DNA from: a virus
DNA: 23,431 nucleotides
Strand: one strand, 5' to 3'
Virus record (IMG/VR): IMGVR_UViG_3300011116_000714
Location: 1 to 23,431 of that record
How positions within the stretch are numbered: position 1 is the first letter of the stretch; the number at the start of each line of letters is the position of its first letter. The translations under genes were made by a program, and so were the position numbers. This document shows, in pieces, positions 13,450 to 18,492 of this stretch. Under the pieces are notes generated by a model. It searched no databases. It had not been told where the DNA came from and saw only the letters and a list, made by a program, of their open reading frames with translations.

Positions 13450-13596
13450 CTACTTTTTGGATTCGGCCAGCTCTCTGACAAGCAAGGTCGTGACGTAGGC
13501 GGAAAAGGACAGGCCGTTCTTCTTAGCCAGCATTTCCCCCTTCCTCTTTACCTTGGGATCGATCGTCAGGTTCGTTTTCACCTTTTTCATAGGCAT
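13450..13596 (-). CDS. ribbon-helix-helix repressor candidate
   Basis: A minus-strand ORF of 48 aa (46 aa from the second ATG at 13590). The sequence VKTNLTIDPKVKRKGEMLAK then KNGLSFSAYVTTLLVREL is a full ribbon-helix-helix (Arc/MetJ/CopG) domain: a beta strand with alternating residues, helix A and helix B. Such proteins act as dimers that insert the strand into the major groove. It is transcribed against all neighbours except the integrase, from a promoter whose spacer holds an inverted repeat (13604-13618), so autorepression is likely. It is the best candidate for a lysogeny repressor here, though an antitoxin-like or integrase-regulator role is possible. Confidence 0.75.
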   Translation of the reverse strand: MPMKKVKTNLTIDPKVKRKGEMLAKKNGLSFSAYVTTLLVRELAESKK

Positions 13597-13624
13597 ATTG
13601 TATGCGTAATAAATACGCCTTCAA
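13597..13624 (-). promoter_or_regulatory. promoter of the minus-strand RHH gene, probably leaderless
   Basis: On the minus strand TTGAAG (13624-13619) and TACAAT (13602-13597) are separated by 16 bp. Upstream, 13625-13660 is almost pure A/T, like an UP element. Transcription about 7 nt past the -10 would begin at the ATG of 13590, and there is no Shine-Dalgarno sequence, so a leaderless mRNA is predicted. Confidence 0.5.
13604..13618. promoter_or_regulatory. operator A, inverted repeat GCGTA-N5-TACGC
   Basis: A perfect 5-bp inverted repeat fills the spacer between -35 and -10 of the minus-strand promoter. Its half-site GCGTA recurs as GCGTAT at 13679 and 13690. Confidence 0.55.
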
Positions 13625-13672
13625 GTAAAAAAGAATTTTAAAAATAAAAAAGAAAAGTGTGGACAATACGGA

Positions 13673-13695
13673 GTGAATGCGTATTCACGGCGTAT
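13673..13695. promoter_or_regulatory. operator B, GTGAAT-GCGT-ATTCAC plus direct GCGTAT repeat
   Basis: GTGAAT/ATTCAC is a perfect 6-bp inverted repeat (13673-13688). It overlaps two direct GCGTAT half-sites at 13679 and 13690, exactly 11 bp apart, the spacing expected for RHH dimers side by side on one face. The site covers the start of the plus-strand RHH gene. Confidence 0.5.
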
Positions 13696-13855
13696 GCCAC
13701 GCCGCCCGCTAAATGGTCAGAAGGTTGAAAAGACAAACTTTTTTTTCCCGGCCATGATTAAAAAAGCCGCTCAAAAATTGGCAAGCAAGCGCCGCATTTC
13801 CCTCTCTCAACTCGTGACCCAACTGCTCGATCGAGCGTCGGGAGAGGCAAGCTAG
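13673..13855 (+). CDS. second ribbon-helix-helix DNA-binding protein
   Basis: 60 aa from GTG 13673, or 53 aa from ATG 13694; neither has a good Shine-Dalgarno. After a basic N-terminal arm (RRPLNGQKVEK), TNFFFPAMIKKAAQKLASKR is followed by RISLSQLVTQLLDRASG, an RHH strand-helix-helix layout. It is divergent from the first RHH gene across about 75 bp holding the repeated half-sites. It sits directly before the excisionase-like gene, suggesting a Cro-like or xis-controlling role in the switch. Confidence 0.6.
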   Translation: MNAYSRRMPRRPLNGQKVEKTNFFFPAMIKKAAQKLASKRRISLSQLVTQLLDRASGEAS

Positions 13856-13861
13856 ATACTT

Positions 13862-14227
13862 ATGATCTTGGGGCGTCTCCACGATACAGCCATGAAACTC
13901 CGCCAAGAGGACGCCGCCCTTTCGCTCCGCCAATTTGGCGCCGCTTACAATCTAGGATACGCCAAGATTAAACAACTGCGGGGAATGCATGGATTTCCCC
14001 TAATCGCGGGAAAGGTAATCCCGAGTGACTTTGATCAATGGCGGAAGGAGCAGGCTGGCCTGCGTTCACAGCATCCCGCAAATCCTCCACGCAGTGTCGC
14101 TGATAAAGCTCGTGCACTAACGTCGAGGAGTGATTCACGAGTCGCATGGCAACTGATTGAGAGCAGCCTGCGAGACGCAATCGCGTCACTCGGGTTACCC
14201 GCAAAGAGTGAAAACAATGACGTTTAA
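13862..14227 (+). CDS. excisionase-like HTH protein
   Basis: 121 aa from ATG 13862; ATG 13892 is an alternative. The section LSLRQFGAAYNLGYAKIKQL followed by RGMHGFPLIAGKVIPSDFDQW matches the MerR-type winged helix of excisionases and AlpA/DNA-binding phage proteins: helix, turn, recognition helix, then a short wing ending in the D-F-D-W segment. The C-terminal half is Ala/Arg/Ser-rich and less conserved-looking. Its last 260 bases run antisense to the end of the integrase gene, so the two messages are complementary there. Role inferred: excision or regulation of int. Confidence 0.6.
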   Translation: MILGRLHDTAMKLRQEDAALSLRQFGAAYNLGYAKIKQLRGMHGFPLIAGKVIPSDFDQWRKEQAGLRSQHPANPPRSVADKARALTSRSDSRVAWQLIESSLRDAIASLGLPAKSENNDV

Positions 14228-15071
14228 GCCCGCAAATATCCAAAAGCCTGCGCCAGCACAAGGACGCCCGTGTGCGGGGAACTTCACAGGTAAGCTCACG
14301 GCCTTCCGCTTTCATTGCCGTCAGCATGGGTTCGATAGCGGCCGGGATCGGAATGCTGAACGATTTTCCACGGCCGCCCTTGGGGCAGGGGAACGTCAGG
14401 ATCCTGTTCTTCAGATCCACGCAGGAAAGGGGGATCTGTGTTTCACGGAGACGGCAGCCGGTGGCCAGCGAGATCTCAAAAGAAACTTTCATCCACTCCG
14501 GCACGCCTTCGATGGACAGCGCTTTCCGCACGATTTTGATTTCATTGTCCGAAAAGACAGGTTTCACGCGGGCAATCGGGCCACGTTTAATTCGGTAATC
14601 AAGCAAGGCAACAGAATCCATTTTTCCAAGCAGTCGGCCTTGACGGTGAATCCATTTCAGAATCTTCAAATCTTGGCACGCTTGGTTCCGACCGGCCTGT
14701 CCGCCGGACGTGCGTGGAAGGTTTTGGCGCCATTTCAAATAAATTTCGCAGTCATTAGCGGAAAATGCTTGCAGACTTATTTTTTTCTCATAAATAAATC
14801 GCTCCAGATGACGCCACGAATTCAAGTAATAAACTTTTGTCAGAGGGGAAACGGGATGATTCTCGATCAAATCATTCACCCAGTCGTGGCCACATTTCGC
14901 CGTGTTTTCATGAACGCCAAGTCGGGCAGCTTCCGCGACTGCCTTGGCCCGGTGCAGGGTATTGTCGATGCGGTAACGGGTGGCCTTACTGCGCCACTTT
15001 CCGTCTTCGTTTTTGTAGCGAATGAAGTACCAGGGGGAGCCTCGTTTAACGTAGGAAAAGGCCATGGTCAC
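13968..15071 (-). CDS. int: tyrosine-family site-specific integrase
   Basis: 367 aa from a GTG at 15071; an ATG two codons later (15065) is likely the true start. The N-terminal arm-binding part (KRGSPWYFIRYKNEDGKWRS) and the SAM-like core-binding domain (about residues 60-150) precede the catalytic domain. Catalytic residues are Arg207 in TGCRLRE, a Lys in the CPKGGRGK hairpin (231 or 236), His288 and Arg291 in FHSLR, His314 in LVNH, and the nucleophile Tyr323 in ELYQRH. All are present, so it should be active. It lies beside a 3'-tRNA-like attP core at 15156. It would integrate the phage into a tRNA gene. Confidence 0.92.
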   Translation of the reverse strand: MTMAFSYVKRGSPWYFIRYKNEDGKWRSKATRYRIDNTLHRAKAVAEAARLGVHENTAKCGHDWVNDLIENHPVSPLTKVYYLNSWRHLERFIYEKKISLQAFSANDCEIYLKWRQNLPRTSGGQAGRNQACQDLKILKWIHRQGRLLGKMDSVALLDYRIKRGPIARVKPVFSDNEIKIVRKALSIEGVPEWMKVSFEISLATGCRLRETQIPLSCVDLKNRILTFPCPKGGRGKSFSIPIPAAIEPMLTAMKAEGRELTCEVPRTRASLCWRRLLDICGLKRHCFHSLRVTRVTRLRLAGCSQSVAMRLVNHSSTLVHELYQRHCVEDLRDAVNAGQPAPSAIDQSHSGLPFPRLGEIHAFPAVV

Positions 15072-15081
15072 AACGGTAACA

Positions 15082-15111
15082 TTTACTCAGTTTGAAGCAA
15101 TAACATACAAT
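15082..15111 (+). promoter_or_regulatory. possible rightward early promoter
   Basis: TTTACT (15082-15087) and TACAAT (15106-15111) are separated by 18 bp in the AT-rich gap right of the integrase start. This fits a sigma-70 promoter for the early operon, but the -35 is a weak match. Confidence 0.25.
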
Positions 15112-15373
15112 GAACTTTCCAAGCATAATAAATCAAAACGAAGAAAGAAATAGAACCGTGGGTTCAAATCCCACCCCGTCCGATGCTTATCATTACAACG
15201 ACTTACAGAGAGTTGTAAAGTCGCAGGTAATACCGGAGCTTCCGAAGCGTCATTACCAACAAGTAAATTTTAATAAACGGGGCGGATATAATCTGGCTCC
15301 GGATGCTTACGTTTGGCACCCGGATCCCGCCGTCCGGCTGGCGTGGTCTCGCCAAGTAAGGGGCGAACAGTGA
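15110..15373 (+). CDS. doubtful ORF running across attP
   Basis: 87 codons from ATG 15110. The first part translates the tRNA-like sequence (NRTVGSNPTPSD), a well-known artefact string, and no Shine-Dalgarno precedes the ATG. The last 25 residues (DAYVWHPDPAVRLAWSRQ...) look more protein-like, and the stop overlaps a GTG start. If it is real, integration at attP would cut the gene after about 17-25 codons. I lean towards non-coding for most of it. The region 15072-15369 otherwise holds attP and inverted repeats. Confidence 0.2.
   Translation: MNFPSIINQNEERNRTVGSNPTPSDAYHYNDLQRVVKSQVIPELPKRHYQQVNFNKRGGYNLAPDAYVWHPDPAVRLAWSRQVRGEQ
15156..15183 (+). other. attP core: 3' end of a tRNA gene
   Basis: GTGGG-TTCAAAT-CCCAC (15158-15174) is a perfect T-arm with the conserved TTCAAAT loop. 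It is followed by a 7-nt acceptor 3' strand, CCCGTCC (15175-15181), and discriminator G. No 5' tRNA half is present, so this is the portion a phage carries to restore the tRNA after integration. The matching tRNA would begin GGACGGG; G73 fits Ser, Asp or Asn types. Confidence 0.8.
15193..15257. repeat. two nested inverted repeats beside attP
   Basis: TTACAAC (15193-15199) pairs with GTTGTAA (15212-15218), and CGACTTAC (15199-15206) nearly pairs with GTAAAGTCG (15215-15223). Next, GGTAAT (15226-15231) pairs with ATTACC (15252-15257) and encloses CGGA-GCT-TCCG (15234-15244). They could be integrase or excisionase arm sites, or a structured 5' leader of the early transcript. Confidence 0.5.
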
Positions 15374-17140: not shown

Positions 17141-17905
17141 ATGGCACCTATCATCGCAACCGCAAAGACCGAGTCGTCGCACTACTACATGGCGACAGGC
17201 GAGTCGTGCCATGGCGATCTACGCTCCGCCCGCAAGGTGGGGGCGTATCCGTCGGTGACCACAATTCTGGCAGCCGCCGGCCCAAGCAAGACCGGACTGA
17301 TGAACTGGAAAGAAGAACAGGCGATCCTTTCCGCTTTATCACTCCCCCGGGAAACATACGAAACTGACGCCGACTTTGCCAAGCGGGTCGTCCTGGACAG
17401 CCGGAAGGAGGTGGAGGCCGCAGCTGTCCGGGGAACCCACATTCACTCTCTGGCAGAAACGCTCATCAACGGTGAGGAACCAGGTGAACTGGTCACAGGC
17501 TATGAGCCGCACTACGAGTCGTTGAAGGAATGGCATAAAGACGTAACAAAAGTACACGCCAGCGAGTCCGTCCTAGTGAATGAAGCCGAAGGATACGCGG
17601 GCCGAGTGGATCTGATTTGCGACATCAATGGAGAGATCGAGGTGGTCGATTTCAAAACCCGCAAATTTAAGAACGGCAAGGCGACAGGATATGAAACCGA
17701 CCTGCTTCAGTTGTCCGCGTATGCGAACGCATTCACGGACGAGTACATGGCATGCCGAAATGTGCTGATTGATCCAGTGACCGGACAGCTGGCAGAAGTC
17801 AAATACACATCGGAGCAGGTCTGCTTTGCATTCGAGGCATTCAAAGCGATCTGCAAAGTCTGGCGATGGCTCAAAAAATACGACCCTCGGGAGGTGAAAC
17901 TATAA
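17141..17905 (+). CDS. RecB/Cas4-type PD-(D/E)XK exonuclease
   Basis: A 254-aa protein with the family motifs in order: GTHIHSLAE (98-106, Cas4/RecB motif I His), GRVDLICD (154-161, catalytic Asp157), VVDFKTRK (168-175, Asp170 and Lys172) and LLQLSAYANAF (188-198, the QxxxY motif IV). It would resect DNA ends for phage recombination and probably works with the upstream SSB-like protein. No single-strand annealing protein is obvious next to it. The stop overlaps the next ATG (TAATG). Confidence 0.88.
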   Translation: MAPIIATAKTESSHYYMATGESCHGDLRSARKVGAYPSVTTILAAAGPSKTGLMNWKEEQAILSALSLPRETYETDADFAKRVVLDSRKEVEAAAVRGTHIHSLAETLINGEEPGELVTGYEPHYESLKEWHKDVTKVHASESVLVNEAEGYAGRVDLICDINGEIEVVDFKTRKFKNGKATGYETDLLQLSAYANAFTDEYMACRNVLIDPVTGQLAEVKYTSEQVCFAFEAFKAICKVWRWLKKYDPREVKL

Positions 17906-18492
17906 TGAAAATCACAGCAATAACTAAATTTAAACAAGGCGATTTATGGAATGCCTTGCAAAAAGCAAGCTGGACGCAAACCGAATTAGCGAAAAGGACG
18001 GGTATCCACGTAACAACAATTGGAGAGTATTGCAATTTGAAGGCCAAGCCAAACACTGACCAAGCCAACAAAATTCAAAAAGCATTTGGGGCTGTTGGCG
18101 TCTTTGTTGATGTTTCAGCAATTTGGCCTGCCGAATTTGTTGGAGTTAAAAAAGCCATAACGGTTCAACAAACTCAAGAAATAGACGTTCACTTACTTCA
18201 ATCAAATCCGCATGAGTTGCATGATACGTGCAAGCCGGACGTTGAATTGCTTAAAACCAAAATAGATCAAGCACTGCATACATTAGATGCAAGGGAACAG
18301 TTTGTAATGCATGAAAGATTTTATAAACAAAAAACCTACGATGAAATCTGCAAAAAAGTTCCGGTCACTAAATCCAGAATTCAGCAGATTGAATTACGGG
18401 CTTTAAGAAGATTGCGTAACTCAAAAAAGGCTTTGGTTCATCTGGGCGAAGCCAGAGCTGCGCTTATTCCAACAAGGATGTCATTTGTATGA
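17905..18492 (+). CDS. XRE HTH fused to sigma-70 region 4-like domain
   Basis: 195 aa from ATG 17905, with GGGAGG upstream. Residues 10-62 are a Cro/XRE helix-turn-helix (ALQKASWTQTELAKRTGIHV, TTIGEYCNLKAKPNTDQANK). Residues 118-172 match sigma-70 region 4: LDAREQFVMHERFY, KTYDEICKKVPVTKSRIQQI, ELRALRRLRN, including the -35 recognition helix. The middle (65-115) is a linker. No region 2 is present, so it is not a full sigma factor. It could redirect host RNA polymerase or repress -35-containing promoters. The gene is AT-rich against its GC-rich neighbours, indicating foreign origin. Confidence 0.75.
   Translation: MKITAITKFKQGDLWNALQKASWTQTELAKRTGIHVTTIGEYCNLKAKPNTDQANKIQKAFGAVGVFVDVSAIWPAEFVGVKKAITVQQTQEIDVHLLQSNPHELHDTCKPDVELLKTKIDQALHTLDAREQFVMHERFYKQKTYDEICKKVPVTKSRIQQIELRALRRLRNSKKALVHLGEARAALIPTRMSFV

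Follow-up and report, generated by a model that had tools for sequence, protein, structure and literature searches.

Two short genes that diverge beside an integrase gene raise the question of what they control in this virus, and through which sites on the DNA. The window, by which we mean the whole stretch of DNA analysed, is the 23,431-bp virus record IMGVR_UViG_3300011116_000714. The two genes are:

13450-13590, minus strand: RHH1, a 46-residue ribbon-helix-helix (RHH) protein with a phrog_582 match, 61 relatives and a conserved ATG at 13590.
13694-13855, plus strand: RHH2, a 53-residue RHH protein and paralogue of RHH1 (hhalign), with RHH_5 in relatives.

The original prediction of two divergent, short RHH-type proteins is borne out by the phrog_582 match, the paralogy and the relatives. 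RHH1 matches phrog_582 (Arc-like repressor) with an E-value of 2.4e-5, RHH2 aligns with the RHH1 family in hhalign (P 1.5e-7, 38% identity), and tblastn with RHH2 picks up RHH1 at 39% identity. Among RHH2 relatives the best RHH_5 E-value is 0.0017, which lies below the curated cut-off. The predicted structure of RHH2 is a two-helix model, and Foldseek with the monomer model places Arc, MatP and CopG among the top rows with poor or insignificant E-values. The family scores are weak and the Foldseek E-values poor, but both proteins are assigned to the RHH superfamily (Arc/MetJ/CopG), and at 46 and 53 residues they consist of little more than the RHH core. Purifying selection acts on both genes, judged by pN/pS values of 0.13 for RHH1 and 0.22 for RHH2, with out-of-frame controls above 1. 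The start codons given originally were wrong, however. The open frame of RHH1 reaches ATG 13596, but only the second ATG, at 13590, is conserved in relatives; for RHH2, GTG 13673 is not conserved and is excluded because, in most relatives outside the window's clade, an in-frame stop codon closely precedes the conserved start, ATG 13694. The RHH1-RHH2 intergenic region is thus 103 bp long.

Relatives in viral contigs comprise overlapping sets of 61 loci for RHH1, 49 for RHH2, 35 for a downstream helix-turn-helix (HTH) gene and 68 for the integrase. Fifty-eight loci, the window and 57 relatives, form class A, and classes B-D are related phages with diverged RHH pairs. The order RHH1, RHH2, HTH gene, integrase is kept in relatives with sufficient flank, and the RHH pair is present at integrase loci with full flank. 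Outside this group, tblastn against INPHARED gave no match for RHH1, RHH2 or the integrase, the only matches being to the primase at less than 30% identity; a search of genome contigs with the RHH1 alignment returned no relative, and no literature on RHH switches in Verrucomicrobia phages was found. By sequence comparison, these viruses have no close relative that we could find among described phages. Four of the 61 RHH1 contigs (L002, L009, L038 and L042) stop within 70 bp upstream of RHH1, which exceeds the chance expectation and perhaps reflects an assembly break in a conserved stretch. In class C, RHH1 is immediately followed, on its own strand, by a gene for a protein with a likely signal peptide (L088, 4056-4538, minus), which is possibly expressed from the prophage.

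The promoter elements between the two genes are:

13597-13602, minus strand: -10 element TACAAT of the RHH1 promoter, the best sigma70-like site, 6 nt before ATG 13590.
13619-13624, minus strand: -35 element TTGAAG of the RHH1 promoter, TTGAAT in many relatives.
13660-13665, plus strand: tentative candidate -35 element TGGACA of the RHH2 promoter, TTGCTA in many class-A relatives and TTGACG in classes C and D.
13682-13687, plus strand: tentative, weak candidate -10 element TATTCA of the RHH2 promoter, 6 nt before ATG 13694.

In 66 of 68 loci, spanning four classes, 6-8 nt separate the best sigma70-like site from the RHH1 start codon. The anti-Shine-Dalgarno duplex energy of RHH1 is +1.9 kcal/mol, i.e., no Shine-Dalgarno pairing, a point that is weak taken alone because such pairing is also absent from some other genes in the window. 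This geometry suggests that the RHH1 message is probably leaderless. A leaderless minus-strand message had been proposed with its start at ATG 13596; the fixed gap between -10 and start codon and the missing Shine-Dalgarno sequence favor the proposal, and the predicted start moves to ATG 13590. Judged against the consensus, the RHH2 promoter is weak, and it has more than one candidate site; the position of its candidate -35 is shared across loci, yet it is not the best-scoring site in most of them.

The same region carries an array of short repeats. The motif GCGTA(A/T) occurs at 13604 (+), 13618 (-), 13679 (+) and 13690 (+), exactly where it had been reported, with only 12 other occurrences in the rest of the 23.4-kb window, and on the minus strand TTGAAG (13624-13619) and TACAAT (13602-13597) are indeed separated by 16 bp that the pair at 13604/13618 fills. 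With the box defined more broadly, as a CG-centred site, a fifth and degenerate copy that had been overlooked (box 3) joins the other four:

13602-13609, centre 13605.5: box 1, ATGCGTAA.
13613-13620, centre 13616.5: box 2, ATACGCCT.
13666-13673, centre 13669.5: box 3, ATACGGAG, degenerate in the window and well formed in most relatives.
13677-13684, centre 13680.5: box 4, ATGCGTAT.
13688-13695, centre 13691.5: box 5, CGGCGTAT, overlapping the RHH2 start codon.

Only three pairs of CG-centred boxes at an 11-bp distance, and a single triple, exist in the whole window, all of them within this array, and 3+2 clusters appeared in none of 300 Markov-shuffled windows and none of 20,000 intergenic shuffles. 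The search for the operator in related phages, suggested at the outset, found the array with its 11-bp pitch in all 58 class-A loci. Two boxes lie in the RHH1 promoter in every one of these loci, three lie near the RHH2 start in 57 and two in the remaining one, and neighbouring boxes within a cluster are 11 bp apart in 173 of 173 pairs; the gap between clusters varies from 52 to 55 bp, and is 35 bp in L053. The distinction first drawn between an inverted and a direct half-site pair does not hold up: judged by box centres, both pairs sit on one 11-bp pitch, and a single array replaces the two separate designs. The box next to the -10 element is flipped in place in four loci (L011, L022, L023 and L032) with the pitch unchanged, as expected for a symmetric dimer. 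Six others (L025, L027, L028, L030, L046 and L049) carry, at the centre of the RHH1 operator, the reverse complement of the sequence found there in most other class-A loci. The RHH1-promoter operator pattern was found at the RHH1 promoter in 38 of 38 records searched, additional matches to a loose version of the pattern being scattered, and in five longer genomes the RHH1-RHH2 array is the only box cluster. Operators elsewhere in the genome, sought as clusters in these two sets, were not found.

The best evidence that the boxes are recognized by the RHH proteins comes from the co-variation of RHH class and box sequence. Compared with the window, L066 has an integrase 96% and an HTH gene product 93% identical, whereas its RHH2 is only 51% identical and its boxes read GCGCA instead of GCGTA. 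In the six contigs of class C, identity is about 48% for RHH1 and about 57% for RHH2, and the boxes are TGCGC; L221 and L222 are more distant still. Boxes with TACG/CGTA arms number 275 of 290 in class A, 3 of 12 in class B, 0 of 36 in class C, a count that includes some boxes inside coding sequence, and 0 of 6 in class D. The full 3+2 array is absent from classes C and D, and L222 lacks the second RHH1-side box. Throughout classes B-D the boxes have changed and the geometry of the RHH1 promoter is the same as in class A. Against the co-variation reading, RHH1 of class B nearly keeps the class-A strand (KTNLTL) although one box has changed. Taken together, the comparison suggests that the RHH proteins read the boxes, and the box classes offer a natural series for how RHH proteins choose DNA.

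The neighbouring genes point to integration and excision as the process under control:

13862-14227, plus strand: small HTH protein of 121 residues, candidate excisionase or recombination directionality factor, in a putative operon with RHH2.
13968-15071, minus strand: tyrosine integrase (phrog_1, E 4.9e-16), in the same place in relatives.
15156-15182, plus strand: candidate attP core of 27 bp, identical to the 3' end of a Verrucomicrobia tRNA-Ser(CGA).

The gap between RHH2 and the HTH gene is 5-7 nt in relatives with sufficient flank (3 nt in L058, where an in-frame TTG was chosen), and no clear terminator separates this rightward operon from the early genes, toward which it points. The HTH protein has no Pfam, PHROG or informative NCBIfam match and no significant fold match. 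Its predicted structure is confident for residues 1-69 only, which form an HTH-like core, and VIA-align places TorI at Z 3.2, no higher than unrelated rows. The product is a candidate excisionase by its position beside the integrase and its HTH-like core; excisionases, or recombination directionality factors, are small winged-HTH proteins that act in excision and are encoded near the integrase. Its C-terminal half is poorly conserved; the gene and the integrase gene are convergent and overlap by about 260 bp, in relatives likewise.

The 27-bp tRNA-Ser(CGA) stretch is present in 23 of 24 relatives checked, and L072 has a different tRNA end. Eighteen genome contigs carry it, of which 15 are named Verrucomicrobia or Akkermansia, nine of these as subdivision 6; no phage protein lies near any of the 18 attB-like matches and no prophage was found in those contigs. 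The presence of this tRNA end in both the window and Verrucomicrobia contigs supports a temperate life cycle and the host group, which is probably freshwater Verrucomicrobia subdivision 6, and the candidate attachment site thereby ties these viruses to freshwater Verrucomicrobia. An open reading frame at 15110-15373 runs through the candidate core and may be partly spurious.

The sequence itself gives the genes, promoter geometry, boxes, pitch, operon spacing, conservation, co-variation, integrase and candidate attP; from these we infer the assignment of each protein to its boxes and the strength of binding, the direction of repression, bistability, the excisionase function and a main-immunity role. 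The locus is likely to be the switch by which a temperate phage family controls lysogeny and excision, operated by RHH1/RHH2 repression with one dimer per box. RHH1 and RHH2 would be paralogous repressors whose dimers sit side by side, one on each CG-centred box, 11 bp corresponding to one helical turn. Occupation of the two-box cluster would block the RHH1 promoter between -35 and -10, and dimers on the three-box cluster would shut the RHH2 promoter together with the start region of that gene. Translated from its probably leaderless message, RHH1 would keep RHH2 and the excisionase-like gene off, giving the prophage state. RHH2 would repress RHH1, and transcription of the rightward operon could then proceed across the candidate excisionase gene, in antisense to the integrase, and on toward the early genes.

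The window also encodes a further candidate regulator:

17866-18492: protein with HTH_3 (Cro/C1-type) and sigma-70 region 4 domains.

The statement that no CI/Cro protein is present was thus wrong for the window. In 18 records, the window and 17 longer relatives (31-36.6 kb), the only HTH_3 match above cut-off is at 17953-18090 of the window; the 17 relatives have none, and S24 peptidase is absent from all 18. The CI/Cro layout, a divergent pair of HTH_3 repressors, is not what was found: the divergent genes are RHH and the HTH_3 match is located elsewhere. In a stronger form of the switch model, immunity depends first and solely on the RHH1/RHH2 paralogues and their one array of boxes at 11-bp pitch. 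The pair would then do with RHH proteins what CI/Cro does elsewhere, classes A-D would be heteroimmunity types that can be exchanged, and the switch would control one early operon. We regard this form as possible, though somewhat less likely than not. The phage family may rely on the RHH switch for its main immunity, but in the window the HTH_3-sigma4 protein could itself be the main regulator.

The most serious alternative, possible although rather doubtful, is a secondary local unit like P22 immI, in which the RHH pair tunes itself and the excisionase-like gene and immunity is held by a repressor elsewhere. P22 immI is a secondary immunity region that is not essential for lysogeny (PMC11016777), the HTH_3-sigma4 protein is at hand in the window, and confinement of the box cluster to RHH1-RHH2 means that distant promoters are not under the array. 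On the other hand, the 17 longer relatives show neither an HTH_3 domain above cut-off nor an S24 peptidase, the RHH alleles are swapped as a cassette between near-identical phages (L066), as is typical of primary immunity, and the rightward operon heads into the early genes with no clear terminator. A partition or plasmid-maintenance site, with an RHH protein of the ParR/omega type on 11-bp iterons, is very unlikely: partition systems do include RHH proteins that bind regularly spaced repeats, but no partition ATPase was noted adjoining the pair, the integrase and the tRNA-derived candidate attP indicate integration, and the boxes are placed exactly in promoter elements. It is more improbable still that the array is a set of attP arm sites for integrase or excisionase rather than an operator. 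The array does adjoin the excisionase-like gene and the integrase; however, this reading was rejected once the tRNA-Ser 3' end was found at 15156-15182, 1.5 kb from the boxes and across int, and the boxes fill a promoter spacer and co-vary with the RHH alleles while the integrase stays 83-97% identical. That these are chance repeats without function in an AT-rich intergenic region is next to impossible, frequent as five-base motifs are in 23 kb, given the invariable pitch in 58 loci and the lack of any such cluster in shuffles.

The switch model can be set beside three kinds of known system. RelB binds as RHH dimers to pseudo-palindromic half-sites about one helical turn apart, a spacing that is essential (PMC2812701). 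The half-site spacing of RelB, Arc and CopG operators resembles the box array, where binding is predicted. These proteins are single autoregulators or antitoxins, whereas the window has one array for two paralogues. No toxin gene is seen nearby: the neighbours encode a small HTH-like protein, RHH2, the HTH protein and the integrase, which also speaks against a type II toxin-antitoxin pair. In lambda-type cI/cro and paaR2/ydaS, as here, the regulators diverge from a short intergenic region with several operator boxes, its length being 97 bp in paaR2/ydaS and 103 bp in the window; a leaderless repressor message is documented for cI and paaR2 (PMC8630535) and probable here by geometry. Both regulators here are RHH proteins rather than helix-turn-helix proteins, and they are much smaller.

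The closest likeness is to P22. There, mnt is divergent from arc-ant, the Arc operator lies between -10 and -35 of the ant promoter, and an antisense RNA, sar, lies over ant. To our knowledge, RHH repressor pairs in phages are known mainly from this secondary immunity region. The two RHH repressors of immI, mnt and arc, control each other and a third gene (PMC11016777, PMC2629481). The window likewise has two RHH repressor genes and a shared operator array inside a promoter, so the Arc/Mnt-like layout that had been proposed is upheld. The suggestion that a two-RHH design is undescribed holds for these sequences, given the INPHARED result, but not for the design itself, which immI exemplifies. 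The third gene of immI is the antirepressor ant, in contrast to the small HTH excisionase candidate beside the integrase here; the Mnt-type C-terminal tetramerisation domain is absent from RHH1 and RHH2, clear paralogues of about 50 residues; the operator is an 11-bp-pitched array of 2+3 boxes; and RHH1 appears leaderless. Because the third gene and the Mnt domain fail to match, the locus would work like immI without being a member of it, and it suggests that gene duplication and a simple box array can form a complete decision switch beside the integration genes.
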